Part shown: in pieces, positions 431-50,730 of the stretch
How the letters are laid out: each line of letters begins with the position of its first letter
How positions within the stretch are numbered: the stretch's first letter is position 1
Origin: Halichondria panicea
Lineage: Eukaryota > Porifera > Demospongiae > Suberitida > Halichondriidae
Reading direction: 5' to 3'
Assembly: GCF_963675165.1 (NCBI RefSeq)
Contig: NC_087391.1
Span: 1,011,001-1,075,000, forward strand
DNA length: 64,000 nucleotides
Notes under the pieces: model-generated
What the model saw: the letters and a program-made list of their open reading frames with translations, nothing else
What the model was told of the DNA's origin: nothing
The model's database searches: none
Made by a program: the position numbers and the translations under genes

Positions 431-759
431 TGTGCCATTTGTACAAAATTTTACATGACATGATAGACTTTCCCAACCCACCGGTTGAAAGAAGAGTGAT
501 TGTCTACAATAGCCGCTCAGTTAATGGTCTCTCCCTGGTACCAATTAGATTTCGAACATCAATGTACCAATACTCATTCTTCCCACACGCTATAACTTTA
601 TGGAATAAACTTGTTAGTAAGTACAATATAGAAGATATTGTCACTGTCAGTGTGTTTAAATATTTTCTGTTTAGGGTGCACTTTACATCTAGCTATATTA
701 GCTAATTGTGTACATCCTATGCTATATGCTGAATTATTATAAAAAAAAAAAAAAAAAAA
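430..759 (+). mobile_element. 3' end of a second non-LTR retrotransposon with poly(A) tail
   Basis: A 91-codon frame (430-705) contains RSVNGLSLVPIRFRTSMY and SFFPHAITLWNKL, the typical post-RT C-terminal tail of LINE ORF2 proteins. A 19-base A-run (741-759) follows the stop. The poly(A) tail abuts the middle of NLR-A exon 1, so this 5'-truncated insertion sits inside that exon and is what removed the NLR-A promoter and start codon. The tail points right, while the RT fragment at 1-430 points left, so they are two different insertions. Confidence 0.8.
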
Positions 760-832
760 CAATGGAACACTTATTGTGGTGCTGGGCTTGTTGTACATTG
801 CAGTGGTCTTATTATCATTGTTAATATTGTCT

Positions 833-859
833 GGATATGTTGAATTGAACCCTGGTCCT
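833..859 (+). other. 2A-like motif, altered (GYVELNPGP), NLR-A
   Basis: The codons read GGA TAT GTT GAA TTG AAC CCT GGT CCT. Copies B, C and D have GAT where this copy has TAT (836-838), so the first Asp of the D-V-E-x-N-P-G-P consensus is replaced by Tyr. That Asp is strongly conserved in active 2A sequences, so ribosome skipping is expected to be weak or absent here. Confidence 0.85.
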
Positions 860-884
860 GGTAATACACCAGATAAAGAAACAG

Positions 885-2209
885 GTAGGCTATAAAAGCT
901 ACTAGTAATAATTATACTATTAGTTTAATATAGCATAATGATGGATTATATCTATTGTAGGCTAGGCCACACCAAATCTACTTGTTTCTCATTCAATGCG
1001 GTCTGGCAGCCGATATAATAATGTGTAACAATTATGTCATTTCCTTACAAAAAAAGCACAGAGCTATTACAAGACTATAATATAGTATATATAGTGGAAT
1101 CTTTGTTGGAACAGAACAAGGTAAACTACACACACTGACAGTGAAAAGAAAAGTCATTCACAATTAATTATATAATTATCATTAATAAATAGTGTTTAGA
1201 TCATTGTTTAGTAAGGCCAAGAGTATATGATAGAGAAAAGAGTATCGAACTTAGTACATCAGATGTATATATGCGGAAGAAATTAGATTACATCACCCAC
1301 GCTTGGATTGGTCAGTGTGCAAATTCCAAGCTTGTGACAGATACAGGAAGTCACATTACTCTCCGCATACATCTGCCAAGCCAACTTATTACATGCTTCA
1401 CGGGTTTCTTTTTGTGAAAGTCAAAACAACGAACCCACAACCATCCACTCCATACCCTTGTAAGGCTTATTTGTTACCACAACATACCAGTGCAGTTCGG
1501 GGAAGCCTAACAGACAGAAACTACCGTATATACAAATGTAGCAGGTAATTTTCAGTTATTTTCGTGGGAAAGCTGACCTCCACAAAAATGTTTCCCTGCG
1601 AAAACATAGGCGTGGTTTACCAGAACGCATGCAATGCAGTGCAAGCAATAAAGTCAAACAAAATTTTTTACTCACACATTTTTTTTACTACACGAAAATT
1701 ACCCGCTATATATGGTAGTTATTTCATGGATATTATTGCTGCTTGCACTGCAGGTAAAGGTAGTCGAGGTTGTTTCAGTCGTGGGTAAATATTCGTTGTC
1801 CAGTGTTCAACCACGAATATTTTGCCCCTAGGAAATTACCAGCTATATACTGTATCCACTCTCCCTTAATTTTTATAATTATTTTTTTACCGGCCTGCCT
1901 GGTCCATAAATTAGAAAGTTTGTGAAACGTGGAATTAAGTTAGCTTGGCCTACTTAATAATAGAACGTTGTGAACAGCTTCCTTATATACCTTGGATGGA
2001 GGTGTATGACATGTGTGTTCTGCACGGTCAATTTTAGTGGTGTTAAAAATCAAATGCTAGTGCGCAGCGCAGTAAGAAAATTTGCCTTCTAGGATTAATG
2101 CACAAGGGAAGAAATAGCAGTAGGATGGGAAACAAAAAATTAAATTTTTGGAGTGACCTAATACCTTGTGAAGGAACAAATTCAAAAACTGCTACCTTTA
2201 TTATTACAG
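885..2209. repeat. NLR-A intron 1 with MITE remnants
   Basis: This is the long first intron, shared in content with NLR-D intron 1 (43041-46867). It holds a partial copy of a palindromic MITE (about 1217-1380; the complete form is at 43351-43557) and a second inverted-repeat element (about 1539-1846) whose arms begin GCAGGTAATTTTC and end GGAAATTACCAGC. The short frames inside it are MITE sequence and show no protein similarity I recognise. The point near 1846 is the empty site of the palindrome inserted in NLR-D. Confidence 0.65.
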
Positions 2210-5200
2210 ATAAAGGAATTATTTTAAGTCTCGCAAACTTGAAAGACGTCATCAATCAGTTGTGGGATGCTCGTACTGAATGGTTCCAGATGGGAGTTAA
2301 TCTTGGGTTGAAACCAGTGGATCTGAAAGCCATTGAAATGAAGCATCGAGCTAGTCCTGACTTGAGTTTTCAAGATATGTTAAAAGTTTGGTTGAAAAAC
2401 ACCGAAAATGTAACGACGTGGAAAGACCTTTCGAATGCTTTACATGCTGTTGGAATGGTTAGAATGGCTACCGAGATAGAAAGAAAATACAATATCGTTC
2501 CCTTGAAAGAAATAGGTGAGTTGATTTATAGTAACACATCGTACTTAATTATTTTTATATAGGTCCCATAGTGGAAGATCATCTAATAAGCTCAGTGCGA
2601 GAGATAGTTCATTTGCCAATGGACGACTGGTTTGAAGTTGGGCTGAAACTTCAGCTTAGTGAGGAAGCTCTTAAGCAGATTGAGAGAGACTATTCCCAAC
2701 ATGAGAGGAGGAAAACAGAAATGCTATCAAGATGGTTTCAGTCCCACCCAGACGCATCATATGAAGAACTGATAAAAGCTCTTGCTTCAACTGGTAACAA
2801 GTCTGTGGCTGAGGAGCTTTGTTCCAAACAAGGTAAAGTACACATGTATAATTATAGTACGCCTGTAATGATGGCAGATGGTAGTGCATGTAGTAATTGA
2901 TTGTGTGATCATTACTTTTGTAGGTATTCCAGCAGAAATAGCAAAATATGAAATTGTTTCAAGGTATATAATGGAATACACTAGATACCTTAAAGAAATG
3001 TACTTAAGTGAGCCTATTATGCAAGAAGATCCATGGCCGCCTCCTCCAAGCGAGAAATTTACTAAACTTACTCTTATCATAAAAAGCCCTCTTACCAAAA
3101 AGGGAGAAGTTGGCAATAAGCTGGATTTGGAAAATATTTTCAAAGGCTTGGAGAAACCTTTTAAGATACTCATAGATGGAGATCCTGGCTCAGGAAAGTC
3201 AACTTTATGTAGGAAGATTGTTCACAATTGGTCTAAAGAGAAAATGGCTCAAGATTTTAACTTAACTGTTCTCGTCCCTTTAAGAGATCCAGAGATAGTT
3301 AACTCAAATAGAATCGACGATCTTTTCTACCACGATGATTCTGATCTTCAAATGAAAGTAGTGGAGCATGTTAGGAAAAATCAAGGTGCTAATGTTCTCC
3401 TCATATTTGATGGCTATGATGAGCTTTCTCACAAACAAAGAACGAAACACTCACTATTTCTACAAATCTTGCAAGGAAAAAAACTAGCGAAATGCTCTGT
3501 ACTTGTAACTTCCCGCCCTCATGCCTCACAAAAATTAGAGAGCTTGCATACTCTAAATCAACACATTGAATTATGGGGGTTTAGTGAATGTGACATCATG
3601 AGCTGTATTTCTTCATCAATACATGGCGAAGAAGGAAATAAACTGCAGTATCTGTTACGTTTTGAGAAGCCTGAGCTACTAAAAGTTTGTGAGAATCCTT
3701 TAATTTGTGCCATTATCATTTTTGTGTATAAACAAAAGAAATATGACTTACCACTAACCCTCACCGGAACTTATGAGTGCTTTATTTCGAATGTTCTCAC
3801 CAGGGAAGCAGACATACAAGGCATTGAATGTAAATCAATGCTCGAACCAGACCTTTTAAATTTATGCAAGCTTGCATATGAGAATAGCGTAAATGACAGA
3901 ATTGTACTTGAGGATGAAGAAATCAGAAAACTTATTGGTCAAAATTTTAAATCACTAGGACTACTCACTGCCTCTAAAGGCTTTATGAGTCGTGGCCGAA
4001 AACTGAATTATACTTTCACTCACCTGACGGTACAAGAATATCTAGCTGCTAAATGGATTCACGAAACGCTATCCCCAATGGATGCTAGTAATTTTTTAGC
4101 TTATAATGTGATGGATGATCGCCTTAGGTACACACTGCTTTTCCTAGCTGGTCAATCCAAACTACATCATCTGTCTTATGAAAAAGTCATTTGTGACAAA
4201 CAGCTAGATTTATTGACATTCAAGGAAACAACAGATCATAAGGCTTTTGTAACAAAAATAATGTTGATATATGAAGCTCAGAATACTGTATTGTGCCCTC
4301 TTTTATCATCAATGATTAAAGAGAGAGTACTAAAGATAATGGCATCTGGACTTAATGAAAAGTTATCCGCTTCTTTAGCTTTCTTCATTGACAAGAGTTG
4401 TTGTACGTGGGAGGTCGTTAATCTGATGCTCATTCATTCAAATTTTGTACAGTTTGTAAGGAATTTTAAAAGCACTAACAAGTTGACAACTGTAAAAAGC
4501 CTTGTTCTAAGGCACGAACCCATTTTCAGGGACTATGGCTGCTGTACTATTAACGACATAAATAGATTGTTATACCAACAAGCGTTCCGTAATGTGAACA
4601 GCTTGTCAGTTACAAGTCCAGTTGATGAAGAGGACTGTGTTAATTATCTGTACGTTGAGGAAAAACAATCTGCAGCAGTATTAATACTGCTAATAATGAT
4701 GGGAAAAATAAAACATTTATCTCTACAAGGAGTAGTTGGTGCTACCAGTGATATACTACCGCTTCATCGTTTAATCGCTAATAGTATGAACTGTCTTGAG
4801 TCTCTGGATATTAAGTCACCTGAGCTCAGCCTTGAAATCATTATGGCGTTGGGTCTAGCAGCTCTTAGACGCTTTCAAACCATGAAAAGTATGTCATTGC
4901 AAATAGTTCTCCCATCTGAAAAAGAACATGACGTCGGCACCACAATAGAAAATATCATTGGAAACTTTTTCTACCTTGACTCTCTCGTTTTAAGATCATA
5001 TCGTAATACAAAGGATATTTATGGTATTTATAATTTCAGCCCAACATTGTCTCATTTTTTATATGGGATTGCTATAAACCGTACTTTGCAAAGAGTAACC
5101 CTAGGAGATATGGATTTTGATCCAAAAGGTGTGTCTTATATTCTTCAAAACAACCACACATTACACACGTTTAATCTCATCTTTGTTGAGCTGACTAAAG

Positions 5201-6121
5201 AACTAATTTTCTCACTAAGCACTGGCTTAAAGAAGAATAATACCTTAAGAAATCTTTGTCTTATAGATTTTCAAGATCGGACTGTTAGATTAGGCACTGC
5301 TATATCTTTTGCAACCAGCAATGCTAGATTCGCTGCTGCATTAGCACGCGTTTCTGATTCAGAAATGGATATCGAAGCAAAACCCGAAAATCCCTATCAT
5401 CTTCTTCTGGATTCAATTGTTACCAGTAGATTGCAGTCAGTAATATTAGATTTTGAACCTGGAAAATTCACCTATAATTCTGCCGAATTTTTTAAGAATT
5501 TAATCCGAATGCTCATCAAGGACAAAACCTTAACACGATTCACTCTAAATGACTCGTACTACTCTGAAGAACATTTAGCTGAAATTGCTCGAGCTCTTGT
5601 GATCAATGGAAGAAGAAATGAAATTGATCTTACACTTGGGAATAGTCTAACGCCATCTATTTATTCCAGAACTTCTCATTCACCATTGCTGACAATGGTT
5701 GGAAATAGACGTATTGGGGATTACAATCTCCCTATAGTACAGGACCAAGAGTTGCTAATTCAACAAAACGTGGACGAGTTTAAGGAAATTATGTTGAAAA
5801 ACATGCTAAAGACACTTGTGTTTATTTTGGCCATACGTAAACAAAAACAAGATAAAATTTTAGAGCAACTAAGCTTTGATTTGTTAACGTATTCTATTCT
5901 GAAAGTTCTTCATAAACGCATCCACAGACAAACGGTATTCCTCGATATGTGGAAAGAAACGAGGATGCTAAGAAGTCTGCTGAACACTCTCTCATTCATT
6001 CTAATGCTGCGTAAACAGAGACAACAAGTATTCCTTGATACCCTTAGGTACCATGTCATGTACATTCCAGAATAGATCATTAAAAATTGTATTCAAAGTT
6101 TGTGTGTATAAACATGTATAA

Positions 6122-17909: not shown

Positions 17910-20900
17910 ATGGATGATATTTCAACCTGGAGAGCTCGAATTGGTCTCTATTGTATCAGGCTGCGCAGTAGAGGCCTGAAGAATAGGTCACCCAGGTCTT
18001 CTAGATCTGCTCCAAGAGGAGGGCTTTATAGTGATGGAACTGGAACACTTATTGTGGTGCTGGGCTTGTTGCACATTGCAGTGATCTTATTATCATTGTT
18101 AATATTGTCTGGAGATGTTGAATTGAACCCTGGTCCTGGTAATACACCAGATAAAGAAACAGGTAGGCTATAATTATAGGCATTAGTACTAATTTGTTCC
18201 TACAAGTCATTAACTATCATGCCTCGTGAAGGAATTATCGTATTCAACATAAAATTTTATGTTTTGGTCAATTATAATGCTACGAAAATGTAACGCGATT
18301 CATCTTATTTCCTCGATTAAACGGCGCGATTTCAATGGGGATTGTACAGGCCTCAAATAAAGGCCAATATTGTGCGGTACAAATTATTTTATGCATAATT
18401 ATGGTATAGGTATACAGTATTAGTTATGCATACATTTCTAGCACTACGCTTAATACAGGTAAAGGAATTGTTTTAAGTCTCACAAACTTGAAAGACGTCA
18501 TCAATCAGTTGTGGGATGCTCGTACTGAATGGTTCCAGATGGGAGTTAATCTTGGGCTGAAACCAGTGGATCTGAAAGCCATTGAAATGAAGCATCGAGC
18601 TAGTCCTGACTTGAGTTTTCAAGATATGTTAGAAGTTTGGTTAAAGAGTATCGAAAATCCAACTACGTGGAAAGACCTTTCAAATGCTTTACATGCTGTT
18701 GGAATGGTTAGAATGGCTACCGAGATCGAGAGAAAATACAATATCATTCCCTTGAAAGAAATAGGTGAGTTGATTTATAGACACGAGTCATACTTAAACA
18801 TAATTATAATAGGTCCCATAGTCGAAGATCATGTAGAACATCTAATAAGCTCAGTGCGAGAGATATTTCATTTGCCAATGGACGACTGGTTTGAAGTTGG
18901 GCTGAAACTTCAGCTTAGTGAGGAGACTCTTAAGCAGATTGAGAGAGACTATTCCCAACATGAAAGGAGGAAAACAGACATGCTATCAAGATGGTTTCAG
19001 TCCCACCCAGATGCATCATACGAAGAGCTGATAAAAGCTCTTGCTTCAACTGGTAACAAGTCTGTGGCTGAGGAACTTTGTTCCAAACAAGGTAAAACTC
19101 TGTTGGATGTAGTACACCTGATGGCAGATGGTGCATGGAAGAATACCAATTGTACTTGCAAAAGTGTGTGTAGTAAATTGATTATGTGATCATTATACTT
19201 ATTAGGTATTCTAGCAGAATTGGCAAAATGTGAATTTATTTCAAGTTGTGTAAAGGAGTACGCTAGATACCTTAAAGAAATGTACTTGAGTGAGCCTATT
19301 ATGCAAGAAGATCCATGGCCGCCTCCTCCAAGTGAGAAATTCACTAAACTTACTCTTATTATTAAAGACCAAAAATGGAAACGATAGCAATGAGCAAATA
19401 GATTTGGAAAATATTTTCAAAGGCTTGGAGAAACCTTTTAAGATACTCATAGATGGAGATCCTGGCTCAGGAAAGTCAACTCTGTGTAGGAAGATTGTTC
19501 ATAACTGGTCTAAAGAGCAAACGGCTCAAGATTTTAACTTAACTGTTCTCATCCCTTTAAGAGATCCAGAGATAGTTAACTCAAATAGAATCGACGATCT
19601 CTTCTACCACGATGATTCTGATCTTCAAATGAAAGTAGTGGAGCATGTTAGGAAAAATCAAGGTGCTAATGTTCTCCTCATATTTGATGGCTATGATGAG
19701 CTTTCTCACAAACAAAGAACGAAACACTCACCATTTTTACAAATTTTGCAAGGAAAAAAACTAGCGAAATGCTCTGTACTTGTAACTTCCCGCCCTTATG
19801 CCTCACAAAAAATAGAGAGCTTGCATACTTTAAGTATACACGTTAAATTATTAGGGTTTAGTGAAAATGACATCATGAGCTGTATTTCTTCATCGATACA
19901 TGGCGAAGAAGGAAATAAACTGCAGAATCTGTTATGTTTTGAAAAGCTTGAGCTACTAAAAGTTTGTGAGAACCCTTTAATTTGTGCCATCATCATTTTT
20001 GTGTATAAACAAGAGAAGTATGACTTACCACTAACCCTCACCGGAACTTACGAACATTTTATTTCAAATGTTCTCACCAGGGAAGCAGACATACAAGGCA
20101 TCGAATGTAAATCAATGCTCGAACCAGACCTTTTAAATGTGTGCAAGCTTGCATATGAGAATAGTTTTAATGACAGAGTTGTACTTGAGGATGAAGAAGT
20201 CAGAAAACTCATTGGTCAAAATTTTAAATCACTAGGACTACTCACCGCATCTAAAGGCTTCATGAGTCGTGGCCGAAAACTGAATTATGCTTTCACTCAC
20301 CTGACGGTACAAGAATATCTAGCTGCTAAATGGATTTACGAAACACTGTCCCCCTTGGACGCTAGTAATTTCTTAGCTTGTAATGTGATGGATGATCGCC
20401 TTAGGTACACACTGCTTTTCCTAGCTGGTCAATCCAAACTACATCATCATTGTTATGAACATGTCATTTGTGACAAACAGTTAGATTTGTGCATGTTCGA
20501 GGAAACAACAGATCATAAGGCATTTGTAACAAAAATAATGTTGATATATGAAGCTCAGAATACTGTGTTATGCCCTCTTTTATCATCATTGATTAAAGGG
20601 CGAGTACTAAAGATAATGGCATCTGGACTTAATGAGAAGTTATCCGCTTCTTTAGCTTTCTTCATTGACAAGAGTTGTTGTACGTGGGAGGTCATTAATC
20701 TGACGCTCATTCATTCAAATTTTGTCCAGTTCGTGAGGAATTTTAAAAGCACTAACGAGTTGACATCTGTAAAAAGCCTTGTTCTAAATCACCAACCCAT
20801 TCTCACGGACTATGGCTACTGTACTATTAATCACATAAATATATTGCTATGCCAACATGCGTTCTGTAATGTAAACAGCTTGTCAGTTACCAGTCCAGTT

Positions 20901-22373
20901 GATGAAAATGAATGTGCAGACCAGCTGGATGTTCGGGACAAAAAAATGTTAGCAACGGTATTAAGAATTCTAATAATGATGGGGAAAATACAACATTTAT
21001 CTCTACAAGGAGTAGTTGGTGCTACCTATCGTTTACTACAGCTTCAGGATTTAATCGCTGATAACATGAATTGTCTTGAGTCTCTGGATATTAAGTCATC
21101 TGAGCACCGCCTAGAAATATTTGTGGCATTGGGCTTTGCAGCACGTGAACGTTTGCAATTAATGAAAAGTATGTCATTGCAAGTAGATCTACGTCTCCCA
21201 GCTGAAATAGAACATGAAGTTGACACAGTATTAAGATTTACTGTCACAGAAACCTTTTTTAACCTTGAATCTCTCATTTTAAGATCATGTTTTAATACAA
21301 AGGGTCCCTTGGATTTTAGTTCCAGCCCAACATTATCTCAATTGTTATATGGGATCGCTATGAATCGTACTTTACAGAGGGTAACCCTAGGAGATATGGA
21401 TATTGATCCAGAAGGTGTGTCTTACATTCTTCAAAACAACCACACATTACACACATTTAATCTCGTCTTTGTTGAGCTGACCAAAGAACTGATTTCCTCA
21501 CTAAGCTGTGGATTAAAGAAAAATAAAAGCTTAAGAAATCTTTGTATTATAGATTCTCAAAATCAAACTGTTGGATCAACCGTTGCTGCATTTATGGCTG
21601 CATTTTCCGCTGCATCATCACACATTAACAATGACTCAGATTGGGACTCAGATTCAGAAATGGATATCGAAGCAAAACTCAAAAATCCCTATCATCTTCT
21701 TCTGGATTCAATTGTTACCAGTAGATTGCAGTCAGTAATACTAGATTTTGAACCCGGAAAGTTCTCCTTTAATTCTGCTAAATTCTTTAAGCATTTAATC
21801 CGAATGCTCATCAAGGACAAAACTATAACACAATTCACTCTAAATGACTCGTGCTACTCTGAAGAACATCTAGCTGAAATTGCTCGAGCTCTTGTGATAA
21901 ATGGGGGAAAAAATGAAATTGATTTCACACTTGGGAATAGTCTAACGCCGTCTATTTATTCCAGAAGTTCTCTTTCACCAATCATATCAGCAATGACTGA
22001 AAATAGACGTGTTGGGGATGATAAAATCCCTATAGTACAAGACCAAGAGTTGCTAATTCAACAAAAAGTGGACGACTTTAAGGAAATTATGTTGAAAAAC
22101 ATGCTAAAGACACTTGTGTTTATTTTGGCCATACGTAAACAAAAACAAGATAGAATTTTAGAACAAATAAGCATTAGTTTGTTAACGTATTCTATTCTGA
22201 AAGTTCTTCATAAACGCATCCACAGACAAACGGTATTCCTCGACATGTGGAAAGAAACGAGGATGCTAAGAAGTCTGCTGAACACTCTCTCATTCATTCT
22301 AATGCTGTGTAAACAGAGACAACAAGTATTCCTTGATACCCTTAGATACCATGCCATGTACATTCCAGAATAG
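17910..22373 (+). pseudogene. NLR-B: 2A-Death-Death-NACHT-LRR gene with one frameshift
   Basis: Exons: 17910-18162, 18459-18764, 18813-19091 and 19206-22373, all joined in phase 1. Exon 1 encodes MDDISTWRARIGLYCIRLRS, an Arg-rich stretch, the hydrophobic segment IVVLGLLHIAVILLSLLIL and the 2A motif. Exons 2 and 3 encode two Death domains (WFQMGVNLGL, then WFEVGLKLQL). Exon 4 has Walker A GDPGSGKST, Walker B LLIFDGYDEL, degenerate LRRs and the helical tail. Near 19360 this copy has CTTATTATTAAAG where C and D have CTTATTTTAAAG. The extra base puts a TAG in frame within about 10 codons, just before NACHT, while the next frame stays open to 22373. Summed exon length is one more than a multiple of three. 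It is either a recent null allele or an assembly or read error. Intron 2 (48 bp) has no in-frame stop, so its retention would add 16 residues. Confidence 0.85.
18111..18137 (+). other. 2A-like ribosome-skipping motif GDVELNPGP, NLR-B
   Basis: The codons give LSGDVELNPGP directly after the hydrophobic segment. This fits the 2A consensus D-(V/I)-E-x-N-P-G-P, at which the ribosome omits the Gly-Pro bond. The break would fall after residue 75, releasing the leader. Similar motifs near the N-terminus of NLR proteins have been described in sea urchin and in a sponge (from memory). Confidence 0.85.
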
Positions 22374-22535: not shown

Positions 22536-22844
22536 TTGGATGTTGGCTGTTAAGCAAACAAAGAACTATAGCCATGCATAATTTAGAACCAAGGGAGTAG
22601 ATCTATGCACTTTCTGTTTATATACCCTTGACAGAATGTACTGTATACTTATTATTGTTATGGCATAAACTTTCATCCATGTCCAAAGACGCCAAGACAT
22701 GTCCATGTAATCCTAAGTTGCCCATGAGTATGTACAATTATAGTATTATCCCAGGATGTCCCAGCACCATGCAACACAGCCCAGGATCAACCATAAGGAT
22801 CAACCATAAGGATCAACCCGGGGTGACCAGGCGTATAGCTATAT

Positions 22845-32172: not shown

Positions 32173-35100
32173 ATGGATGATATTTCAACTTGGAGAGCTC
32201 GAATTGGTCTCTATTGTATCAGGGTGCGCAGTAGAGGCCTGAAGAATAGGTCACCCAGGTCTTCTGTCCCGAAAGGAGGGCTTTATAGTGATGGAACTGG
32301 AACTCTTATTGTGGTGCTGGGCTTGTTGCACATTGCAGTGGTCTTATCATCATTGTTAATATTGTCTGGAGATGTTGAATTGAACCCTGGTCCTGGTAAT
32401 ACACCAGATAAAGAAACAGGTAGGCTATAATTATAGGCATTAATATGGTATATACTAATTTGTTCCTACAAGTCATTAGTTTAATTAACTATATATCATG
32501 CCTCGTGAAGGAATTATCGTATTCAACATAAAATGTTGTGTTTTGGTCAATTATAATGCTATGAAAACGTAATGCGATTCATCTTATTTCCTCGATTAAA
32601 CGGCGCAATTTCAATGGGGATTGTACAGGCCTCAAATAAAGGCCAATATTGTGCGGTACAAATTATTTTATGCATAATTATGGTATAGGTATACAGCATT
32701 AGTTATGCATACATTTCTAGCACTACGCTTAATACAGGTGAAGGAATTGTTTTAAGTCTCGCAAACTTGAAAGACATCATCAATCAGTTGTGGGATGCTC
32801 GTACTGAGTGGTTCAAGATGGGAGTTAATCTTGGGCTGACACCAGTGGATCTGAAAGCCATTGAAATGAAACATCGAGCTAGTCCTGACTTGAGTTTTCA
32901 AAATATGTTAGAATTTTGGTTGAAGAATACCGAAAATCCAACTACGTGGAAAGACCTTTCGAATGCTTTACATGCTGTTGGAATGGTTAGAATGGCTACC
33001 GAAATCGAAAGAAAATACAATATCATTCCCTTGAAAGAAATAGGTGAGTTGATTTATAGTAACGCGAGTCATACTTAAACATAATTATATAGGTCCCATA
33101 GTCGAAGATCATGTAGAACATCTAATAAGCTCAGTGCGAGAGATAGTTCAATTGCCAATGGACGACTGGTTTGAAGTTGGGCTGAAACTTCAGCTTAGTG
33201 AGGAGACTCTTAAGCAGATTGAGAGAGACTATTCCCAACATGAGAGAAGGAAATCTGAAATGCTATCAAGATGGTTTCAGTCCCATCCAGATGCATCATA
33301 CGAAGAGCTGATAAAAGTTCTTGCTTCAACTGGTAACAAATCTGTGGCTGAGGAGCTTTGTTCCAAACAAGGTAAAACTATATTGGATGTAGTACACCTG
33401 TGATGATGGCAGATGGTGCATGGAAGAATACCAATTGTACTTGCAAAAGTGTGTGTAGTAAATTGATTATGTGATCATTATACTTATTAGGTATTCCAGC
33501 AGAATTGGCAAAATGTGAATTTATTTCAAATTGTGTAAAGGAGTATGCTAGATACCTTAAAGAAATGTACTTGAGTGAGCCTATTATGCAAGAAGATCCA
33601 TGGCCGCCTCCTCCAAGTGAGGAATTCACTAAACTTACTCTTATTTTAAAGACCAAAAATGGAAACGATAGCAATGAGCAAATAGATTTGGAAAATATTT
33701 TCGAAGGCTTGGAGAAACCTTTTAAGATACTCATAGATGGAGATCCTGGCTCAGGAAAGTCAACTCTATGTAGGAAGATTGTTCATAACTGGTCTAAAGA
33801 GCAAACGGCTCAAGATTTTAACTTAACTGTTCTCATCCCTTTAAGAGATCCAGAGATAGTTAACTCAAATAGAATCGACGATCTTTTTTACCACGATGAT
33901 TCTGATCTTCAAATGAAAGTAGTGGAGCATGTTAGGAAAAATCAAGGTGCTAATGTTCTCCTCATATTTGATGGCTATGATGAGCTTTCTCACAAACAAA
34001 GAACGAAACATTCACTATTTCTACAAATCTTGCAAGGAAAAAAACTAGCGAAATGCTCTGTACTTGTAACTTCCCGCCCTCATGCCTCACAAAAAATAGA
34101 GAGCTTGCATACTTTAAGTCAACACGTTAAATTATTAGGGTTTAGTGAAAGTGACATCATGAACTGTATTTCTTCATCAATACATGGCGAAGAAGGAAAT
34201 AAACTGCAGTATCTGTTAAGTTTTGAGAAGCTTGAGCTACTAAAAGTTTGTGAGAATCCTTTAATTTGTGCCATTATCATTTTTGTATATAAACAAGGAA
34301 AATATGACTTACCAATAACCCTTACCGGAACTTACGAACATTTTATTTCGAATGTTCTCACCAGGGAAGCTGACATACAAGGGATCGAATGTAAGTCAAT
34401 GCTCGAACCAGACCTTTTAAATTTGTGCAAGCTTGCATATGAGAATAGTTTTAATGACAGAGTTGTACTTGAGGATGAAGAAGTCAGAAAACTCATTGGT
34501 CAAAATTTTAAATCACTAGGACTACTCACCGCCTCTAAAGGCTTCATGAGTCGTGGCCGAAAACTGAATTATGCTTTCACTCACCTGACAGTACAAGAAT
34601 ATCTAGCTGCTAAATGGATTTACGAAACACTGTCCCCCTTGGACGCTAGTAATTTCTTAGCTTGTAATGTGATGGATGATCGCCTTAGGTACACACTGCT
34701 TTTCCTAGCTGGTCAATCCAAACTACATCATCATTGTTATGAACATGTCATTTGTGACAAACAGCTAGATTTGTGCACGTTCGAGGAAACAACAGATCAT
34801 AAGGCATTTGTAACAAAAATAATGTTGATATATGAAGCCCAGAATACTGTATTGTGCCCTCTTTTATCGTCATTGATTGAAGGGAGAGTACTAAAGATAA
34901 TGGTATCTGGACTGAATGAGAAGTTATCCGCTTCTTTAGCTTTCTTCATTGACAAGAGTTGTTGTACGTGGGAGGTCATTAATCTGACGCTCATTCATTC
35001 AAATTTTGTCCAGTTCGTGAGGAATTTTAAAAGCACTAACGAGTTGACATCTGTAAAAAGCCTTGTTCTAAATCACCAACCCATTCTCACGGACTATGGC

Positions 35101-36666
35101 TACTGTACTATTAATCACATAAATATATTGCTATGCCAACATGCGTTCTGTAATGTAAACAGCTTGTCAGTTACCAGTCCAGTTGATGAAAATGAATGTG
35201 CAGACCAGCTGGATGTTCGGGACAAAAAAATGTTAGCAACGGTATTAAGAATTCTAATAATGATGGGGAAAATACAACATTTATCTCTACAAGGAGTAGT
35301 TGGTGCTACCTATCGTTTACTACAGCTTCAGGATTTAATCGCTGATAACATGAATTGTCTTGAGTCTCTGGATATTAAGTCATCTGAGCACCGCCTAGAA
35401 ATATTTGTGGCATTGGGCTTTGCAGCACGTGAACGTTTGCAATTAATGAAAAGTATGTCATTGCAAGTAGATCTACGTCTCCCAGCTGAAATAGAACATG
35501 AAGTTGACACAGTATTAAGATTTACTGTCACAGAAACCTTTTTTAACCTTGAATCTCTCATTTTAAGATCATGTTTTAATACAAAGGGTCCCTTGGATTT
35601 TAGTTCCAGCCCAACATTATCTCAATTGTTATATGGGATCGCTATGAATCGTACTTTACAGAGGGTAACCCTAGGAGATATGGATATTGATCCAGAAGGT
35701 GTGTCTTACATTCTTCAAAACAACCACACATTACACACATTTAATCTCGTCTTTGTTGAGCTGACCAAAGAACTGATTTCATCACTAAGCTGTGGATTAA
35801 AGAAAAATAAAAGCTTAAGAAATCTTTGTATTATAGATCCTCAAAATCGAACTGTTGGATCAACCGTTGCTGTATTTATGGCTGCATTTTCCGCTGCATC
35901 ATCACACATTGACAATGACTCAGATTGGGACTCAGATTCAGAAATGGATATCGAAGCAAAACTCAAAAATCCCTATCATCTTCTTCTGGATTCAATTGTT
36001 ACCAGTAGATTGCAGTCAGTAGTACTAGATTTTAAACCATTAAACTTCTTCCACAATTCTGCCAAATTCTTTAAGCATTTAATCCGAATGCTCATCAAGG
36101 ACAAAACCTTAACACGATTCACTCTAAATTTTTCGTACTACTCTGAAGAACATCTAGCTGAAATTGCTCGAGCTCTTGTGATAAATGGGGGAAAAAATGA
36201 AATTGATTTCACACTTGGGAATAGTCTAATGCCATCTATTTATTCCAGAACTTCTCTTTCACCAATCATATCAGCAATGACTGGAAATAGACGCCCTGGG
36301 GATGATGAACTCCCTATAGTACAGGACCAAGAGTTGCTAATTCAACAAAAAGTGGACGAGTTTAAGGAAATTATGTTGAAAAACATGCTAAAGACATTTG
36401 TGTTTATTTTGACCATACGTAAACAAAAACAAGATAGAATTTTAGAACAATTAAGCTTTGATTTGTTAACGTATTCTATTCTGAAAGTTCTTCACAAACG
36501 CATCCACAGACAAACGGTATTCCTCGATATATGGAAAGAAACGAGGATGCTAAGAAGTCTGCTGAACACTCTCTCATTCATTCTAATGCTGCGTAAACAG
36601 AGACAACAATTATTCCTTGATACCCTTAGATACCATGTCATGTACATTCCAGAAATAGATCATTAA
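32173..36666 (+). CDS. NLR-C: 2A-Death-Death-NACHT-LRR receptor, intact by eye
   Basis: Exons: 32173-32419, 32738-33043, 33093-33371 and 33491-36666, giving 1335 residues. The start is MDDISTWRARIGLYCIRVRS, shared with B and D. The leader has one hydrophobic segment before GDVELNPGP. Death domain 1 lies in exon 2 (LWDARTEWFKMGVNLGLTPV ... TWKDLSNALHAVG), and Death domain 2 in exon 3 (WFEVGLKLQLSEETLKQIE). Exon 4 has NACHT with Walker A GDPGSGKST, Walker B LLIFDGYDEL and the sensor VLVTSRPHA. Degenerate LRRs follow (for example IQHLSLQGV, LESLDIKSS, LQRVTLGDM). The C-terminal tail has two related helices (ILTIRKQKQ and ILMLRKQRQ). One extra base at the end replaces the usual stop, adding IDH. 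By family this is a cytosolic sensor that signals through Death-domain contacts; ligand and partners are unknown. Confidence 0.88.
32368..32394 (+). other. 2A-like ribosome-skipping motif GDVELNPGP, NLR-C
   Basis: Same sequence as B and D. In C the leader is two residues shorter (RSSVPKGG in place of RSSRSAPRGG of B), so the predicted break falls after residue 73. Confidence 0.85.
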
Positions 36667-42787: not shown

Positions 42788-45700
42788 ATGGATGATATTT
42801 CAACCTGGAGAGCTCGAATTGGTCTCTATTGTATCAGGGTGCGCAGTAGAGGCCTGAAGAATAGGTCACCCAGGTCTTCTAGATCTGTTCCAAGAGGAGG
42901 GCTTTATAGTGATGGAACTGGAACACTTATTGTGGTGCTGGGCTTGTTGCACATTGCAGTGGTCTTATTGTCACTGTTAATATTGTCTGGAGATGTTGAA
43001 TTGAACCCTGGTCCTGGTAATACACCAGATAAAGAAACAGGTAGGCTATAAAAGCTACTAGATCTAGTAATAATTGTACTATTAGTTATAGCATAATGAT
43101 GGATATAATTATTATATCTATGGTCCGGTAGGCCACACCAAATCTACTTGTTTCTCATTCAATGCGGTCTGGCAGCCGATGTAATAATGTGTAACAATTA
43201 TGTCATTTCCTTACAAAAAAAGCACAGAGCTGTTATAGCGGAATCTTTGTTGGAACAAAACGAGGTAGACTACACACACTGACAGTGAAAAGAAAAAGTC
43301 ATTTACAATTATTATAGATCATAGTGTTTAGATCATTGTTTAGTATAAGGCCAAGAGTATATGATAGAGAAAAAAGTATCGAACGTAGGCATACTGTACA
43401 TCAGATGTATGCGGAAGAAAGTAGATTACATCACCCACGCTTGGATTGGTCAGTGTGCAGCTTGTGACAGATACAGGAAGTCACGTTACTCTCCGCATAC
43501 ATCTGATACACAGTATGCCTACGTTCGATACTCTCTCTCTCTATCATATACTCTTGGTAAGGCCAAGCCAACTTGATTACATGCTTCACGGGTTTCTTTT
43601 TGTGAAAGTCAAAACAACAAACCCACAACCATCCACTCCATACCCTTGTAAGGCTTATTTGTTACCACAACATACCAGGGAAGCCTAACAGGCAGAAACT
43701 ACTGTATAGCAGGTAATTTTCTTGAGGTAAAAACATTCGTTATTTTCGTGGGCAAGCTGACCTCCACAAAAATGTTTCCCTGCGAAAACATATAGGCGTG
43801 GTTTAATGCAAGCAATAAAGTCAAACAAAATTTTTTACTCAAACATTTTTTTTACTACACAAAAATTACCCGCTATATGGTAATCATTTCATGGATATTA
43901 TTTTCATGGTTGCTGCTTGCACTGCAGGTATAAAGATAGTCAAGGTCGCTTCATTTGTGGGTAAAATATTTGTTGTTCAGTGTTCAACCACGAATATTTT
44001 GCCCCTCGGAAATTACCAGCTATAGAGTAAACAACCGATTATCGAACACGTACTATTTTCTAACGCTTGTTCTCAAGGATAACGGCTCAGAGCACTAAGC
44101 TGATAATACCTAGGTATAGACAAGGTAAATCTCTATTCAAGTCCAAACTCAGGGCGGCCAACAAAAAGCTTCTTCAGCGGAGTGACAGGGCCAAACACTC
44201 AACTAATGGAACAGATTTAGTTCGAACATAGCCACCATTCTTCGAACTCTCTCTCTCGTATCAACAGAAGGCTCTAAGCAGCTAGCTACAATGCATGACC
44301 GTAATCTACAACTAGTAAACTATGTACAGCTCTGATTTCGAGGTCTGACTGCAAACCGTTAGATAATGGTGGCCTCTTGAAAAAGTCCAGTATTGCCATC
44401 AAAAAATCCAAACGATTAATACCTTTTTATTCATAATCTCCATTTTTTCCCTAAAGTTGCATTCTTACGTCATGGCTACACTGGAGATTATAAAGAAAAA
44501 AGCAATAATCGTTCGGATTTTGATGGCAATACTGCACTTTTTCAAGAGGCCACCATTATCTAACGGTTTGCAGTCAGACCTCGAAACCAGAGCTGTGCAT
44601 AGTTTACTAGTTGTATTACGGTCATGCATTGTGCTTAGAGCCTTCTGTTGATACGAGAGAGAGAGAATTTGAAGAATCGTGGCTATGTTCGAACTAAATC
44701 TGTTCCAATACCCTGTCACTCCGCCGAAGAAGCTTTTTGTTGGCCGCCGTGAGTTTGGACTTGAATAGAGCTTTACCTTGTCTATACCTAGGTACTATCA
44801 GCTTAGTGCTCTGGGCCGCTGTCCTCGAGAACAAGCGTTCGAAAATAGCACGTGTTCGATAATCGGTTGTTTACTCTATACTATATCTCCACTCTCCCTT
44901 AATTTTTATAATAATTTTTTTACTGGCCTGCCTGGTCTATAAATTAGAAAGTTCGTGAAACATGGAATTAAGTTAGCTTGGCCTAAGTATAGGATATACC
45001 ACACCTAAGAGGAGGCCGAGTAGGTGTGGCATATCTGACTTATACCACGTGACCGCAGCACTATAAAAGGACCTCCCCCTAGCAACAATTCAATCACGAT
45101 GCAGACTGCAAAAAGAACAAGACTATGCCGGATTTTGCAGCCATCAAAGAGCTAGTTGAGCAACATGTTGACTCCTACAGATGCTCAAGAGCTTCCTTGG
45201 TCCAAGCGTTGACCATTCGACGTCCCTTACTGGAGTTGCAAGCTCTTCTTGGATAAAATGTATCTAAACCGCGCCCATGGACCCATGGAAGCTTAGCCAT
45301 CTTGTTGGAGAGCACCTTCCGTGTTTCTGCCGTCGCTTTGAGTCTTAATACCGTCAAGCATGGCTCTCTTCTCTTTGCTTACTTTCTTGAACAAATGAAA
45401 AAACTAAAAAAACAACTTGCATGCCTGGGGCTGTATGCTAATATTCTATATATCCTACAGCTGTTGACCAATGAGATCAATTTGTGGTGACGTAAGTGTG
45501 GTATAAGTTTAGTTATTTTGTTACTTAAGGTTACGGTAAACCGTTTGCTCATTAATTATTCATAAGCTAGATCTAGTGATCTTTTCCAGCTAGAATAAGC
45601 TGCATGGAAGTCCAGCTAAAACGCAGTAGTCGTTTCATGGCTCGAATAGACATTTTTAATAGATAGCTTAGATGCAGTCTACTGTAGCTGAAGTATATGC

Positions 45701-48700
45701 AGGGCCACACGAAGAGATATTAAAATGAAAGCACCGCGGGTGCTGTGATGCCTCGGTGGAGGTGCCAAAGCTATACATAATATAAAACTACTAATAGCTA
45801 GCTTTTATACACACATTGATTATGATGAATTTTGCTGCATGCAATCAACCGAATAGTGGGTAATGATCAATCATGATTGTTGTTAAAAACGATCGATGCC
45901 AAAATTAATCCAAGGCTCTCTGCTCACTCTTGCAGCTACCAATAGCTAGCGTTCTAGTGCAGAGCTAACTACTAAGTAGAGTAGTAACACTCGGTGAACA
46001 AGTTTTGCTACGGACTCTTCTGAAAAGGCTGCAATAGCATTCCAAGTAAGCAAAACTAGGCATAACTCGAGAACGAAGCATTATTTTGCAAATCCATCCA
46101 AGTAAACATGACTAGAAGCCTATAGAAACTCTTACTTGCACTTGATTCATCCTTGAGCAGCTGTAGCGGTCTACACACACACACACACAGACACACAAAC
46201 ACACTACCGTATACCTCGCTTGCGCATGCGCACCGAGGCATGAAAAGGTTACTGAAAGCTCACAAGAGGCTGTTTTCCTTGGCTCTGTCAGCCATTTTAA
46301 GTTTTATTTTGTGAGAGTTTCCTGGCCTGGAACGAAAAAACGCTTCGTGTAGCCCTCCAGAATGGTAAGAAGTATCCTATAAGAGCAAGAACACAGAGCT
46401 AGAAGTATTTTTGGAAGCATAAAATGACTACTAGTTTGTGTTGTTTCTAGAGCTTCCACTGAAAGATATTTTGAAGATTGATCCTGATTGATACACCGAT
46501 ATATTTATCATGTGTGTGCTTCAAACTTCTCTCGTGGCATTTTATAGTTTCACAAAAATCATTATAAGAAATCATGAATATATTCATGAGCAAACTGTTT
46601 ACCGTAACCTTAATAATAGAACGGTTGTGAACAGCTTCCTTACCTTAGAGACGATGGATGTGTATGACATGTGTGTTTTGCATGGGCAATTTTAGTGGGG
46701 TCAAAAATCAAATGCTAGTGCGTAACGCAGTAAGAACATTTGCCTTCTAGCACAAGGGAAGAAATAGCAGTAGGATATATGAGAAACAAGAAATTGAATT
46801 TTTGGAGTGACCTAATGCCTTGTGAAAGAACAAATTCAATAACTGCTACCTTTATTAATAATTACAGATAAAGGAATTATTTTAAGTCTCGCAAACTTGA
46901 AAGACGTCATCAATCAGTTGTGGGATGCTCGTACTGAGTGGTTCCAGATAGGAGTTAATCTTGGGCTGACACCAGTGGATCTGAAAGCCATTGAAATGAA
47001 GCATCGAGCTAGTCCTGACTTGAGTTTTCAAGATATGTTAGAAGTTTGGTTGAAAAACACCGAAAATGTAACGACGTGGAAAGATCTTTCGAATGCTTTA
47101 CATGCTGTTGGAATGGTTAGAATGGCTACCGAGATCGAGAGAAAATACAATATCGTTCCCTTGAAAGAAATAGGTGAGTTGATTTATAGTAACACATTGT
47201 ATAATTATTATTTTTATATACATGTATACATGTAGGTCCCATAGTCGAAGATCATCTAATAAGCTCAGTGCGAGAGATAGTTCATTTGCCAATGGACGAC
47301 TGGTTTGAAGTTGGGCTGAAACTTCAGCTTAGTGAGGAAGCTCTTAAGCAGATTGAGAGAGACTATCCCCAACATGAGAGAAGGAAATCAGAAATGCTAT
47401 CAAGATGGTTTCAGTCCCACCCAGACGCATCATATGAAGAACTGATAAAAGCTCTTGCTTCAACTGGTAACAAGTCTGTGGCTGAGGAGCTTTGTTCCAA
47501 ACAAGGTAAAGTACACACATATATAGTACGCCTGTGATGATGGCAGATGGTAGTGTGTGTATATATTAATTGATTGTGTGATCATTACTTATGTAGGTGT
47601 TCCAGCAGAAATAGTAAAATATGAAATTGTTTCAAGGTATATAATGGAATACACTAGATACCTTAAAGAAATGTACTTGAGTGAGCCTATTATGCAAGAA
47701 GATCCATGGCCGCCTCCTCCAAGTGAGGAATTCACTAAACTCACTCTTATTTTAAAGACCAAAAATGGAAACGATAGCGATGAGCAAATAGATTTGGAAA
47801 ATATTTTCGAAGACTTGGAGAAACCTTTTAAGATACTCATAGACGGAGATCCTGGCTCAGGAAAGTCAACTCTATGTAGGAAGATTGTTCACAATTGGTC
47901 TAAAAAGAAAATGGCTCAAGATTTTAACTTAACTGTTCTCGTCCCTTTAAGAGATCCAGAGATAGTTAACTCAAATAGAATCGACGATCTTTTCTACCAT
48001 GATGATTCTGTTCTTCAAATGAAAGTAGTGGAGCATGTTAGGAAAAATCAAGGTGCTAATGTTCTCCTTATAATGGATGGCTATGATGAGCTTTCTCACA
48101 AACAAAGAACGAAACACTCACTATTTTTACAAATCTTGCAAGGCAAAAAACTAGCTAAATGCTCAGTACTGGTAACTTCCCGCCCTCATGCCTCACAAAA
48201 ATTAGAGAGCTTGCATACTCTAAGTCAACACGTTAAATTATTAGGGTTTAGTAAAAGGGACATCATGAGCTGTATTTCTTCATCAATACATGGCGAAAAA
48301 GGAAAAAAACTACAGTATCTGTTACGTTTTGAGAAGCTTGAGCTTCTAAAAGTTTGTGAGAACCCTTTAAGTTGTGCCATCATCATTTTTGTGTATAAAC
48401 AAGAGAATTATGACTTACCACTAACCCTCACTGGAACTTACGAATATTTTATTTCGAATGTTCTCACCAGGGAAGCAGACATACAAGGCATCGAATGTAA
48501 ATCAATGCTCGAACCAGACCTTTTAAATTTGTGTAAGCTTGCATATGAGAATAGTATCAATGACAGAGTTGTACTTGAAGATGAAGAAGTTAGAAAACTC
48601 ACTGGTCAAAATTTTAAATCACTAGGACTACTCACTGCCTCTAAAGGCTTCATGAGTCGTGGCCGAAAACTGAATTATGCTTTCACTCACCTGACGGTAC

Positions 48701-50730
48701 AAGAATATCTAGCTGCAAAATGGGTTCACGAAACACTGTCCCCCTTGGACGCTAGTAATTTCTTAGCTTGTAATGTGATGGATGATCGCTTTAGGTACAT
48801 ACTGCTTTTCCTAGCTGGTCAATCCAAACTACATCATCAGTCTTATGAACATTTCATTTGTGACAAACAGTTAGATTTGTGCACGTTCGAGGAAACAACA
48901 GATCATAAGGCATTTGTGACAAAAATAATGTTTATATATGAAGCTCAGAATATTGTATTGTGCCCTCTTTTATCATCATTGATTAAAGGGCGAGTGCTAA
49001 AGATAATGGCATCTGGAATTAATGAAAAGTTATCTGCTTCTTTAGCTTTCTTCATTGACAAGAGTTGTTGCACGTGGGAGGTTGTTAATCTGATGCTTGT
49101 TCATTCAAATTTTGTCCAGTTTGTGAGCAATTTTAAAAGCACTAACAAGTTGACAATTGTAAAAAGCTTTGTTCTAAATCACGAACCCATTATCACAGAC
49201 TACGGTTGCTGTACTATTAACGACATAAATAGATTGTTATGCCAAGATGCGTTCTGTAATGTAAACAGCTTGTCAGTTACAAGTCCAGTTGATGAAAAGG
49301 AATGTGCTTATTTTTACGTTGAGGAAAAACAATCAGCAATGTTTTTAAGAATGCTAATAATGATGGGAAACATACAACATTTATCTCTACAAGGAGTAGT
49401 TGGTGCTACCAATGATACATTTCATGATTTTATTGGTAATAACATGAACTATCTTGAGTCTCTGGATATTAAGTCATCTCAGCAGAGCTTGGAAATCCTT
49501 TGGGCATTAGGCTTTGCAGTTCGTGGACGTCTTCAAGTCATGAAGAGTTTGTCATTGCAGGTACTACTCCCATCTGAAATAGAACATAAAGTTGACACAA
49601 GATTAGGATTTACTGTCAAAGAAAACTTTTTCAACCTTGACTCTCTCATTTTAAGATCATGTTGGAATACAAAGGATCTCTTTGGTTCGAGTTTCAGCCC
49701 AACATTGTCTAACTTTTTATATGGGATTGCTATGAACCATACTTTGCAAAGGGTAACCCTAGGAGATATGGATCTTAATCCAAAAGGTGTGTGTTACATT
49801 CTTCAAAACAACCACACATTGCACACATTTAATCTCGTCTTTGTTGAGCTGACGAAAAAACTGATTTCCTCACTAAGCATTGGCTTAAAGAAGAATAAAA
49901 CCTTAAGAAGTCTTTGTCTGATAGATTTTCAAGATCGGACTGTTGGAGTAGGCTCTGCTATATCTTTTGCAATCACCAATGCTAGAACCGTTGCATTAAC
50001 ATGCGTTTCTGATTTAGAAATGGATATCGAAGCAAAACCAGAAAATCCCTATCATCTTCTTCTGGATTCAATTGTTACCAGTAAATTGCAGTCAGTAGTA
50101 TTAGATTTTGAACCCGGAAAATTCTCTTTTAATTCTGCTAAATTCTTTAAGCATTTAATCCGAATGCTCATCAAGGACAAAACCTTAACACGATTCACTC
50201 TATATTATTCGTACTACTCTGAAGAACACCTAGCTGAAATCGCTCGAGCTCTTGTGATAAGTGGAAAAAGAAATGAAATTGATTTCACACTTGGGAATAG
50301 TCTAACACCATCTATTTATTCCAGATTTTCTCATTCACCAACGTCAATATTGAATGGAAATAGACGTCCTGGGGATTACCAAATCCCTATAGTACAGGAC
50401 CAAGAGTTACTAATTCAACAAAAAGTGGATGAGTTTAAGGATATTATGTTGAAAAACATGCTAAAGACACTCGTGTTTATTTTGGCCATACGTAAACAAA
50501 AACAAAATAAAATTTTGGAGCAACTAAGCTTTGATTTGTTAACGTATTCTATTCTGAAAGTTCTTCATAAACGCATCCACAGACAAACGGTATTCCTCGA
50601 TATATGGAAAGAAACGAGGATGCTAAGAAGTCTGCTGAACACTCTCTCATTCATTCTAATGCTGCGTAAACAGAGACAACAAGTATTCCTTGATACCCTT
50701 AGATACCATGTCATGTACATTCCAGAATAG
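42788..50730 (+). CDS. NLR-D: 2A-Death-Death-NACHT-LRR receptor, intact by eye
   Basis: Exons: 42788-43040, 46868-47173, 47236-47505 and 47597-50730, giving 1320 residues. Domain order is as in NLR-C. Residues 1-75 form the basic leader and hydrophobic segment up to NPG; Death domains occupy about 90-185 and 190-275, and NACHT begins about residue 340. Walker A is GDPGSGKST; Walker B is LLIMDGYDEL, with Met for the usual Phe. The leucine-rich part differs most from the other copies (for example NDTFHDFIGNN). Intron 1 is 3.8 kb and full of nested elements, while B and C have about 300 bp. Exons 2 and 3 and the intron resemble NLR-A more than B or C. Confidence 0.88.
42989..43015 (+). other. 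2A-like ribosome-skipping motif GDVELNPGP, NLR-D
   Basis: Identical to the motif in B and C and placed right after LSLLILS. The predicted break lies after residue 75, between NPG and P. Confidence 0.85.
43351..43557. repeat. Palindromic MITE in NLR-D intron 1
   Basis: CCAAGAGTATATGATAGAGA and the reversed right end CCAAGAGTATATGATAGAGA match exactly. The arms continue through ATCGAACGTAGGCATACTG. NLR-A keeps a shortened copy (about 1217-1380). Confidence 0.85.
44025..44876. mobile_element. Long palindrome (852 bp) inserted in NLR-D intron 1
   Basis: GAGTAAACAACCGATTATCG on the left mirrors CGATAATCGGTTGTTTACTC on the right, and the homology runs almost to the centre near 44450. TATA flanks both ends (44021-44024, 44877-44880). 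NLR-A intron 1 has the uninterrupted sequence CCAGCTATATACTG. No protein is encoded; mirrored short frames are artefacts. Confidence 0.88.
44979..45524. repeat. Foldback-type element, family of the inner arms at 11470/13467
   Basis: It begins GTATAGGATATACCACACCT and ends with an imperfect inverted match (GTGTGGTATAAG). Similar arms occur in the composite insertion at 11462-13500. A minus-strand frame (45357-45175) has no similarity I recognise. Confidence 0.5.
45529..46609. mobile_element. TTAA-flanked (piggyBac-like) non-autonomous element
   Basis: Termini GGTTACGGTAAACCGTTTGC and, reversed, GGTTACGGTAAACAGTTTGC lie between TTAA (45525-45528) and TTAA (46610-46613). NLR-A intron 1 has a single TTAA in the matching context (CCTACTTAATAATAGAAC, near 1955). 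TTAA is the piggyBac target. Family X copy 2 is nested inside. Confidence 0.8.
45725..46241 (+). mobile_element. Repeat family X, copy 2 (517 bp)
   Basis: This is the least interrupted copy. The 5' end ATGAAAGCACCGCGGGTGCT contains a small hairpin, and TGCCTCGGTG near the start is answered by CACCGAGGCA at the 3' end. The 3' end also holds a 25-bp hairpin (CCTCG..GCGCATGCGC..CGAGG). An (AC)n run precedes the 3' end. No coding capacity. Confidence 0.7.

Follow-up and report, generated by a model that had tools for sequence, protein, structure and literature searches.

Leader exons ending in a canonical 2A motif precede Death-domain receptor genes in the sponge Halichondria panicea: a predicted two-product arrangement

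Introduction

The stretch of Halichondria panicea DNA analysed here (64 kb, referred to as the window) carries four Death-NACHT genes in tandem (copies A-D), and raises the question of why the first exon of such receptors should encode a hydrophobic run followed by a 2A ribosome-skipping motif. The answer that we consider likely is that exon 1 forms a leader complete in itself, which ends in a canonical 2A and is connected through a phase-1 intron with NLR-type Death exons, and that the gene yields two products; judging from the sequence, one mRNA would probably give a small membrane peptide and a separate cytosolic receptor.

Results

Exon 1 of the window receptors

The sequence-only reading of this locus had claimed that exon 1 of copies B, C and D joins a hydrophobic run to GDVELNPGP, and this was confirmed: the exon has a MDDISTWRARIG... 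start, a hydrophobic run of about 22 residues and then GDVELNPGP (the leader start ahead of the hydrophobic run being spelled MDDISTWRARIGLYCIR...), and in copy D it spans exactly 42788-43040. The leader features of the window are the following.

42788..43040, + strand: leader exon 1 of copy D (84 codons + 1 nt, phase-1 donor)
42806..42823, + strand: WRARIG motif, D leader residues 7-12
42920..42985, + strand: D leader, hydrophobic helix at about residues 45-66 (hydropathy, AlphaFold2)
42992..43015, + strand: 2A octapeptide DVELNPGP of copy D
17910..18162, + strand: leader exon 1 of copy B (2A octapeptide at 18114-18137)
32173..32419, + strand: leader exon 1 of copy C (2A octapeptide at 32371-32394)
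758..883, + strand: leader remnant of copy A, N-terminal half missing (YVELNPGP at 836-859)

Exon 1 of copy D runs from the ATG at 42788 to a donor at 43040/43041 (...ACAG/GTAGGC), and a second GT, likewise in phase 1, lies 24 nt before this donor. An in-frame stop is present two codons 5' of the ATG in each of B, C and D, so that each ATG is the first in its own frame. Counted to the Gly of NPG, the leaders measure 75, 73 and 75 residues (B, C and D), in agreement with the 73-75 residues proposed earlier. No known family was matched by the leader in Pfam.

The leader of copy A keeps the hydrophobic half only and reads GYVELNPGP, with Tyr replacing Asp; GYVE recurs in a frameshifted extra copy that lies outside the window (C15:970.5 kb). 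The 2A Asp is reported to contact rRNA, and its change to Ala to abolish activity; some other residues are active at this position in their own contexts, Tyr not being among those named in the accessible part of that source (PMC12846837). Given this role of Asp, the 2A of copy A and of the C15:970.5 kb copy may be inactive.

2A sites across the genome

The pattern GDVExNPGP gave 20 matches genome-wide and 0 for its reversed control; D(V/I)ExNPGP occurs at 116 sites (97 + 19; 131 Mb, 39 contigs), with 0 + 0 for the reversed patterns. Because the reversed-pattern controls are empty, the window motif is not a chance occurrence. The site counts are not independent, many being young tandem duplicates and 41 of the 116 lying in one C14 array. 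A silicatein-like probe matched the same genome 35 times: the three best matches were ordinary cathepsin-L-like sequences with Cys, and among four shorter ones that were read, three carry Ser in its place and one keeps Cys. Ser at this position is characteristic of silicatein, and silicatein of demosponges, in keeping with a probable demosponge source.

A Death-type exon follows at least 75 of the 116 sites, taken as the union of two tests. The first, based on 150 Death-exon matches from one query (150 scored among 551 candidates), found a same-strand match no more than 2 kb downstream at 57 of the 116 sites, with 2 upstream and 0 antisense; 200 trials of random placement averaged 0.5 and never exceeded 3 (the extents of three contigs being approximate), and shifting the 2A sites by 4-6 kb left 1-3 with a Death-exon match. 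The second covered 51 entries whose downstream DNA extends for 900 bp or more; 31 of them were positive (30 of 50 sites, one site being doubled), which added 18 sites: 12 on C5, C6:4772811, C10:6504586, C13:4058165 and the window's 3.

The other 41 sites were sorted by hand. In nine, all read, the 2A abuts Death-type sequence within one exon or open frame (the joined exons of L036 pass the Pfam cut-off for Death with E 5.7e-5; those of L029, at 0.05, do not). Eleven C2 sites (three read) and two C1 sites have a different downstream domain, one of the C1 sites with a NACHT 1.8 kb further on. Four are C5-type leaders whose downstream DNA lay outside the test, C11:4571341 has a Death match below threshold, and six were unclassified. 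The remaining eight are retroelement-like: PHD and endonuclease were identified by Pfam in L003, L007 and L026; L004, L006 and L065 are alike in sequence, and L005 and L067 are less clear.

Seen from the receptors, 102 NACHT matches were scored out of 265 candidates, and a 2A lay within 8 kb upstream of 13; therefore many receptors do without a 2A. Six Death-type exon regions (L121-L126) contain no NPGP in any frame. Dozens of Death-type exons on C1, at about 0.1-8 Mb, have no 2A from the site list in their vicinity and form a natural leaderless comparison group.

Some 2A sites showed features of their own. Eleven are clustered at C2:7744905-7837796 and use the Val codon GTG; in the three of C2 that were read (L111-L113), the 2A is encoded by a short exon that has an acceptor-like AG on its upstream side and is followed by a domain of another type. 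Two neighbouring sites, C16:2730885 (L037) and C16:2740084 (L046), lie in frames of 826 and 849 codons, which gave no Pfam match above the cut-off. The upstream frame of some C14-type 2A leaders (L066, L098, L099; C13, C14) contains a fragment of an EHD (EH-domain-containing ATPase) G domain, identified in L099 by a PDB match (E 7e-13) and in L066 and L098 by eye.

Predicted splicing to the Death exons

A GT-donor-like word was found by a simple search within 45 nt in 95 of 108 site entries, in phase 1 in 91 of the 95; some loci are counted twice among these entries, and retroelement entries, where the GT word is no donor, are included. In all 14 representatives with a located motif, the predicted donor that follows the 2A and the predicted acceptor that precedes the Death domain are both in phase 1 (16 were tried; the two without the motif by the search expression were both found by the Death profile described below). 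A phase-1 AG lies shortly before the Death motif in every one of the 14, and several have AGs in other phases further up. The reading frame of the 2A is thus open on both sides with matching predicted splice phases, and at the fused sites the 2A and the Death-type sequence share one exon. From these sequence data, exon 1 is predicted to be spliced onto the Death-domain exons.

Domains of the receptors

Downstream of the leaders, the window contains the following features.

43041..46867, + strand: predicted intron 1 of copy D, phase 1 (3.8 kb)
46868..47232, + strand: first Death-domain exon of D (phase-1 acceptor; its end is that of the open frame)
47205..47534, + strand: open frame with the second Death domain of D
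47554..50727, + strand: NACHT exon of D (open frame of 1058 aa; NLRP3-like NACHT)
18459..19186, + strand: Death-domain region of copy B, two domains in a single open frame
19290..22370, + strand: NACHT exon of copy B
32689..33400, + strand: Death-domain region of copy C, two domains in two open frames
33475..36663, + strand: NACHT exon of copy C
2047..2559, + strand: open frame with the first Death domain of copy A (Pfam score slightly below the cut-off)
2872..6072, + strand: NACHT exon of copy A, still open (1067 codons) despite the broken leader

NACHT was identified by Pfam in all four copies (E 4e-25 to 6e-23), and the NACHT of D matched NLRP3 structures (E 7e-18). Both Death frames submitted to Pfam gave Death, with E 2e-15 for B and a score under the cut-off for A (E 4e-4). 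A local, window-seeded and iterated Death profile, which covers C and D, returned 38 rows for domains lying 3' of 2A sites, of which two are insignificant side rows, while reversed decoys yielded none; a profile built from eight such Death-type exons matched the Death domains of PIDD and FADD in the PDB (E 6e-7 and 2e-6). The claimed connection of the leader with Death-NACHT exons is supported by sequence, by matching phase-1 splice sites and by the selection described below. No LRR was detected in the window receptors (Pfam, E ≤ 0.1), and an AlphaFold2 model made for this question was too poor for its fold to be read (pLDDT only 42.7). Other architectures also follow 2A leaders: at the C5 locus L032 the Death-type exon is followed by ankyrin repeats (Pfam E 4e-46), and L027 combines Death with a P-loop GTPase-like exon (Pfam Gtr1_RagA, 6e-5).

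Elsewhere in the window, two long tandem-repeat arrays of about 82-84 bp (22809-24026 and 25928-27783) have consensus units in mutually opposite orientation, the second creating spurious long open frames; a Cys-rich open frame on the - strand (58580-59755) has a 39-bp tandem repeat encoding TQCLPNRDPS units and a Pfam Mucin-like match (E 1e-9).

Anatomy and hydrophobicity of the leaders

Fifteen leaders from five groups, picked by a loose WRARIG motif plus 2A, can be aligned from the N-terminus to R17 and again from the helix to the 2A, the stretch between being variable in length. The WRARIG leaders read have 73-146 residues, some with extra hydrophobic segments; in C5- and C1-type leaders further hydrophobic stretches lie upstream, as judged by eye. 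For the D leader, AlphaFold2 gave helices at residues 4-20 and 44-72 (mean pLDDT 69.6), the second being the confident one. A tail-anchored protein has one membrane helix within about 30 residues of its C-terminus; a single predicted helix at 44-72 of 75 residues corresponds, as a sequence layout only, to this arrangement.

Hydrophobicity was compared as the best 19-residue mean hydropathy, near-identical copies being dropped and the groups being labelled by simple rules (at least one C2 locus was placed with the C11 type). The medians were 3.06 for the window/C13 leaders (n=4), 2.98 for C11-type (n=14), 2.71 for C1-type (n=2), 2.48 for C5-type (n=18) and 2.17 for C14-type (n=40), 1.44 for the fused-Death family (n=6), 0.82 for retroelement 2As (n=8), 1.21 for five unclassified loci and 1.55 for two rest loci. 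The window leaders are thus of transmembrane grade, far above the retroelement 2As of the same genome. On the free-energy scale, the C14-type median was marginally membrane-grade (+1.9) and that of the fused-Death family not at all (+9.2). The possibility that WRARIG forms an amphipathic membrane-binding helix was rejected, the hydrophobic moment being below the shuffle mean in 6 of the 6 leaders tried.

Conservation and selection

The loose pattern W-R-(A/V)-R-x-G gave 66 genome matches against 49 for its reversed control and therefore proves nothing alone. The exact WRARIG was not found outside 2A genes: its 34 occurrences comprise 29 with a canonical 2A within 600 bp and 5 decayed leaders. 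The 2A is kept in 27 of 27 unbroken WRARIG Met-to-2A frames versus 2 of 7 broken ones (Fisher p 7.5e-5, with duplicates that are not independent and the five 2A-less leaders read by eye); the decayed leaders have NPEP, NLEP, NHGP or GYVE, or have lost the motif altogether.

In 17 C5-type leaders, pN/pS was 0.38 overall, 0.27 in the first 30 codons and 0.17 at GD(V/I)ESNPGP, the 2A changes being undercounted since these leaders were gathered by motif. The ratios were weaker in 46 C14-type leaders (0.63 overall, 0.39 at the 2A), where the test is a weak one: the array is young, the copies were gathered by motif and the 2A invariance is partly by construction. When a C14-type leader was the query of a protein search, 51 matches were obtained: a canonical site is present in 49, and GNVEANPGP in the other two; Asn at the Asp position is reported to be active in RNA-virus contexts (PMC12846837). 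Within the window, dN/dS was alike in the leader (0.11-0.52, few changes) and the NACHT exon (0.44-0.53). Between D and its C13 paralogue, identity was 47% in the leader (dS about 2.8, silent sites saturated), 41% in the first Death frame and 33% in NACHT; the leader is thus better conserved than the NACHT exon in this one distant paralogue, and the WRARIG codons differ between C13 and C15. The interpretation of the motif as a 2A was sustained by its canonical form against empty reversed controls, by the splice phase and by this selection.

Discussion

How the leader could work

Most ribosomes would skip the Gly-Pro bond at the 2A of the leader, and two proteins would result. One would be a leader of 73-75 residues, in which the conserved basic N-terminus is followed by one membrane helix and a C-terminal tail of roughly 9 residues; the other would be a soluble receptor of Death-Death-NACHT layout whose first residue would be Pro. 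The ribosome exit tunnel is reported to hold 30-40 residues (PMC2978324). With NPG in place, the D helix would still be inside the tunnel, some 10-31 residues away from the peptidyl-transferase centre, as skipping is decided. SRP should thus not yet see it, and the released leader would resemble small tail-anchored proteins in its behaviour, the WRARIG end facing the cytosol. If skipping failed, the helix would become exposed to SRP and, as a signal-anchor with a basic N-side, would take the fused receptor to the ER. This geometry suggests that the skipped leader is a tail-anchored membrane peptide, dual targeting being a by-product or a fine-tuning, and we infer that the leader is more likely a separate membrane peptide than a cleaved-off signal.

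We propose more tentatively, at the scale of the genome, that 2A co-produces WRARIG membrane leaders and Death receptors of several architectures at a 1:1 ratio, and that the leader, rather than a disposable signal, is a gene product of its own that acts as partner or regulator of the receptor at the membrane.

Other explanations

It is unlikely, although this explanation survives best among the others, that the dual-targeting switch of the sequence-only reading and of Roulston et al. applies, the leader being chiefly a signal-anchor and selection maintaining an unskipped secretory fraction. Sea urchin SpNLR2A6 is reported to show about 80% recoding in vitro, and its recoding-dead mutant to reach the Golgi and the medium in HeLa cells (PMC4981915); 2A can be inhibited when the translocon engages the upstream sequence (PMC2978324), and the hydrophobic run of the leaders goes well beyond that of the retroelement 2As. 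In C5-type leaders the first hydrophobic stretch would fall roughly in the zone of translocon inhibition, where targeting could tune skipping, and it is possible, as the sequence-only reading had it, that skipping efficiency sets the split of the receptor between cytosol and membrane. Against a signal-anchor as the main role, a Death-NACHT receptor would have no obvious partners in the ER lumen, the conserved WRARIG N-terminus would be superfluous for a signal, C5- and C1-type leaders have extra hydrophobic stretches upstream, and the fused-Death family lacks a membrane-grade helix.

It is less probable still that exon 1 is a rare alternative first exon or a separate short transcript, with receptor mRNAs mostly starting elsewhere. 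Copy A combines an open NACHT frame of 1067 codons with a broken leader, so that receptors may do without the leader or use a different first exon, and the predicted intron 1 of D is long (3.8 kb); on the other side, phase-1 donors and acceptors agree in the 14 representatives read, and in the fused family the 2A exon extends into the Death domain and encodes its first half. Least probable is a relic, in which the leader would not skip and would be kept as a plain signal-anchor or derive from a retroelement: about 8 of the 116 sites are non-LTR-like and give the genome a 2A source, but these PHD/endonuclease-type sites (Pfam in 3) form a class of their own, which led us to reject a retroelement origin for the motif in the window, the leader frames inspected showed nothing resembling PHD or endonuclease, and both the unbroken WRARIG leaders (27 of 27, with decay to NPEP, NLEP, NHGP or GYVE in broken copies) and the C14-type matches (49 of 51) keep the canonical site.

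Comparison with known systems

2A in non-LTR retrotransposons was reportedly described by Odon et al. in 2013; the core motif is the same, and in this genome too it lies ahead of PHD/endonuclease frames. The retroelement 2A sites differ from the leaders in having no Death-type match downstream, among those examined over at least 900 bp, and a much less hydrophobic upstream region. With viral 2A/StopGo (picornaviruses), the sponge sites share the GD(V/I)ExNPGP core and an L-rich upstream tract (PMC12846837), but they are placed in tandem host receptor genes with spliced exons. As in the NLRs of the demosponge Dysidea avara (PMC12909245), the Death-NACHT receptors are expanded; the accessible text of that study contains neither 'signal peptide' nor 'skipping' and describes no leader. 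StopGo/2A has been described as never or rarely used by cellular genes (PMC12846837). With 2A leaders before at least 75 Death-domain exons, 2A would become a commonplace tool of innate immunity in animals, with use in two distant animal lineages, and the sponge would offer a natural system for the coupling of skipping and membrane targeting.

The closest precedent is the sea urchin, where 2A signal sequences of NLRs (26 residues) were described by Roulston et al. 2016, with 2A-like sequences on 85 of 241 NLRs and dual targeting by the leader in mammalian and plant cells (PMC4981915). A signal with 2A at an NLR N-terminus and dual targeting is therefore already published. Of the earlier statement that 2A motifs precede NLRs in sea urchin and in a sponge, the first part is documented there; for the second, no sponge report was found in the literature searched, most subscription papers being out of reach. 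Sponge leaders and SpNLR2A have in common an N-terminal 2A on Death-NACHT receptors, a hydrophobic signal-like stretch and a large family; in SpNLR2A the 2A is itself the signal, within 26 residues (PMC4981915), whereas the sponge WRARIG leaders have 73-146 residues. Unlike SpNLR2A, 2A leaders of the sponge are also found before a Death-ankyrin gene, and some directly adjoin Death domains and have no membrane helix. The sponge case thus differs in the WRARIG leaders of 73-146 residues, a defined and testable new peptide, and in the use of 2A leaders on Death-ankyrin besides Death-NACHT receptors.
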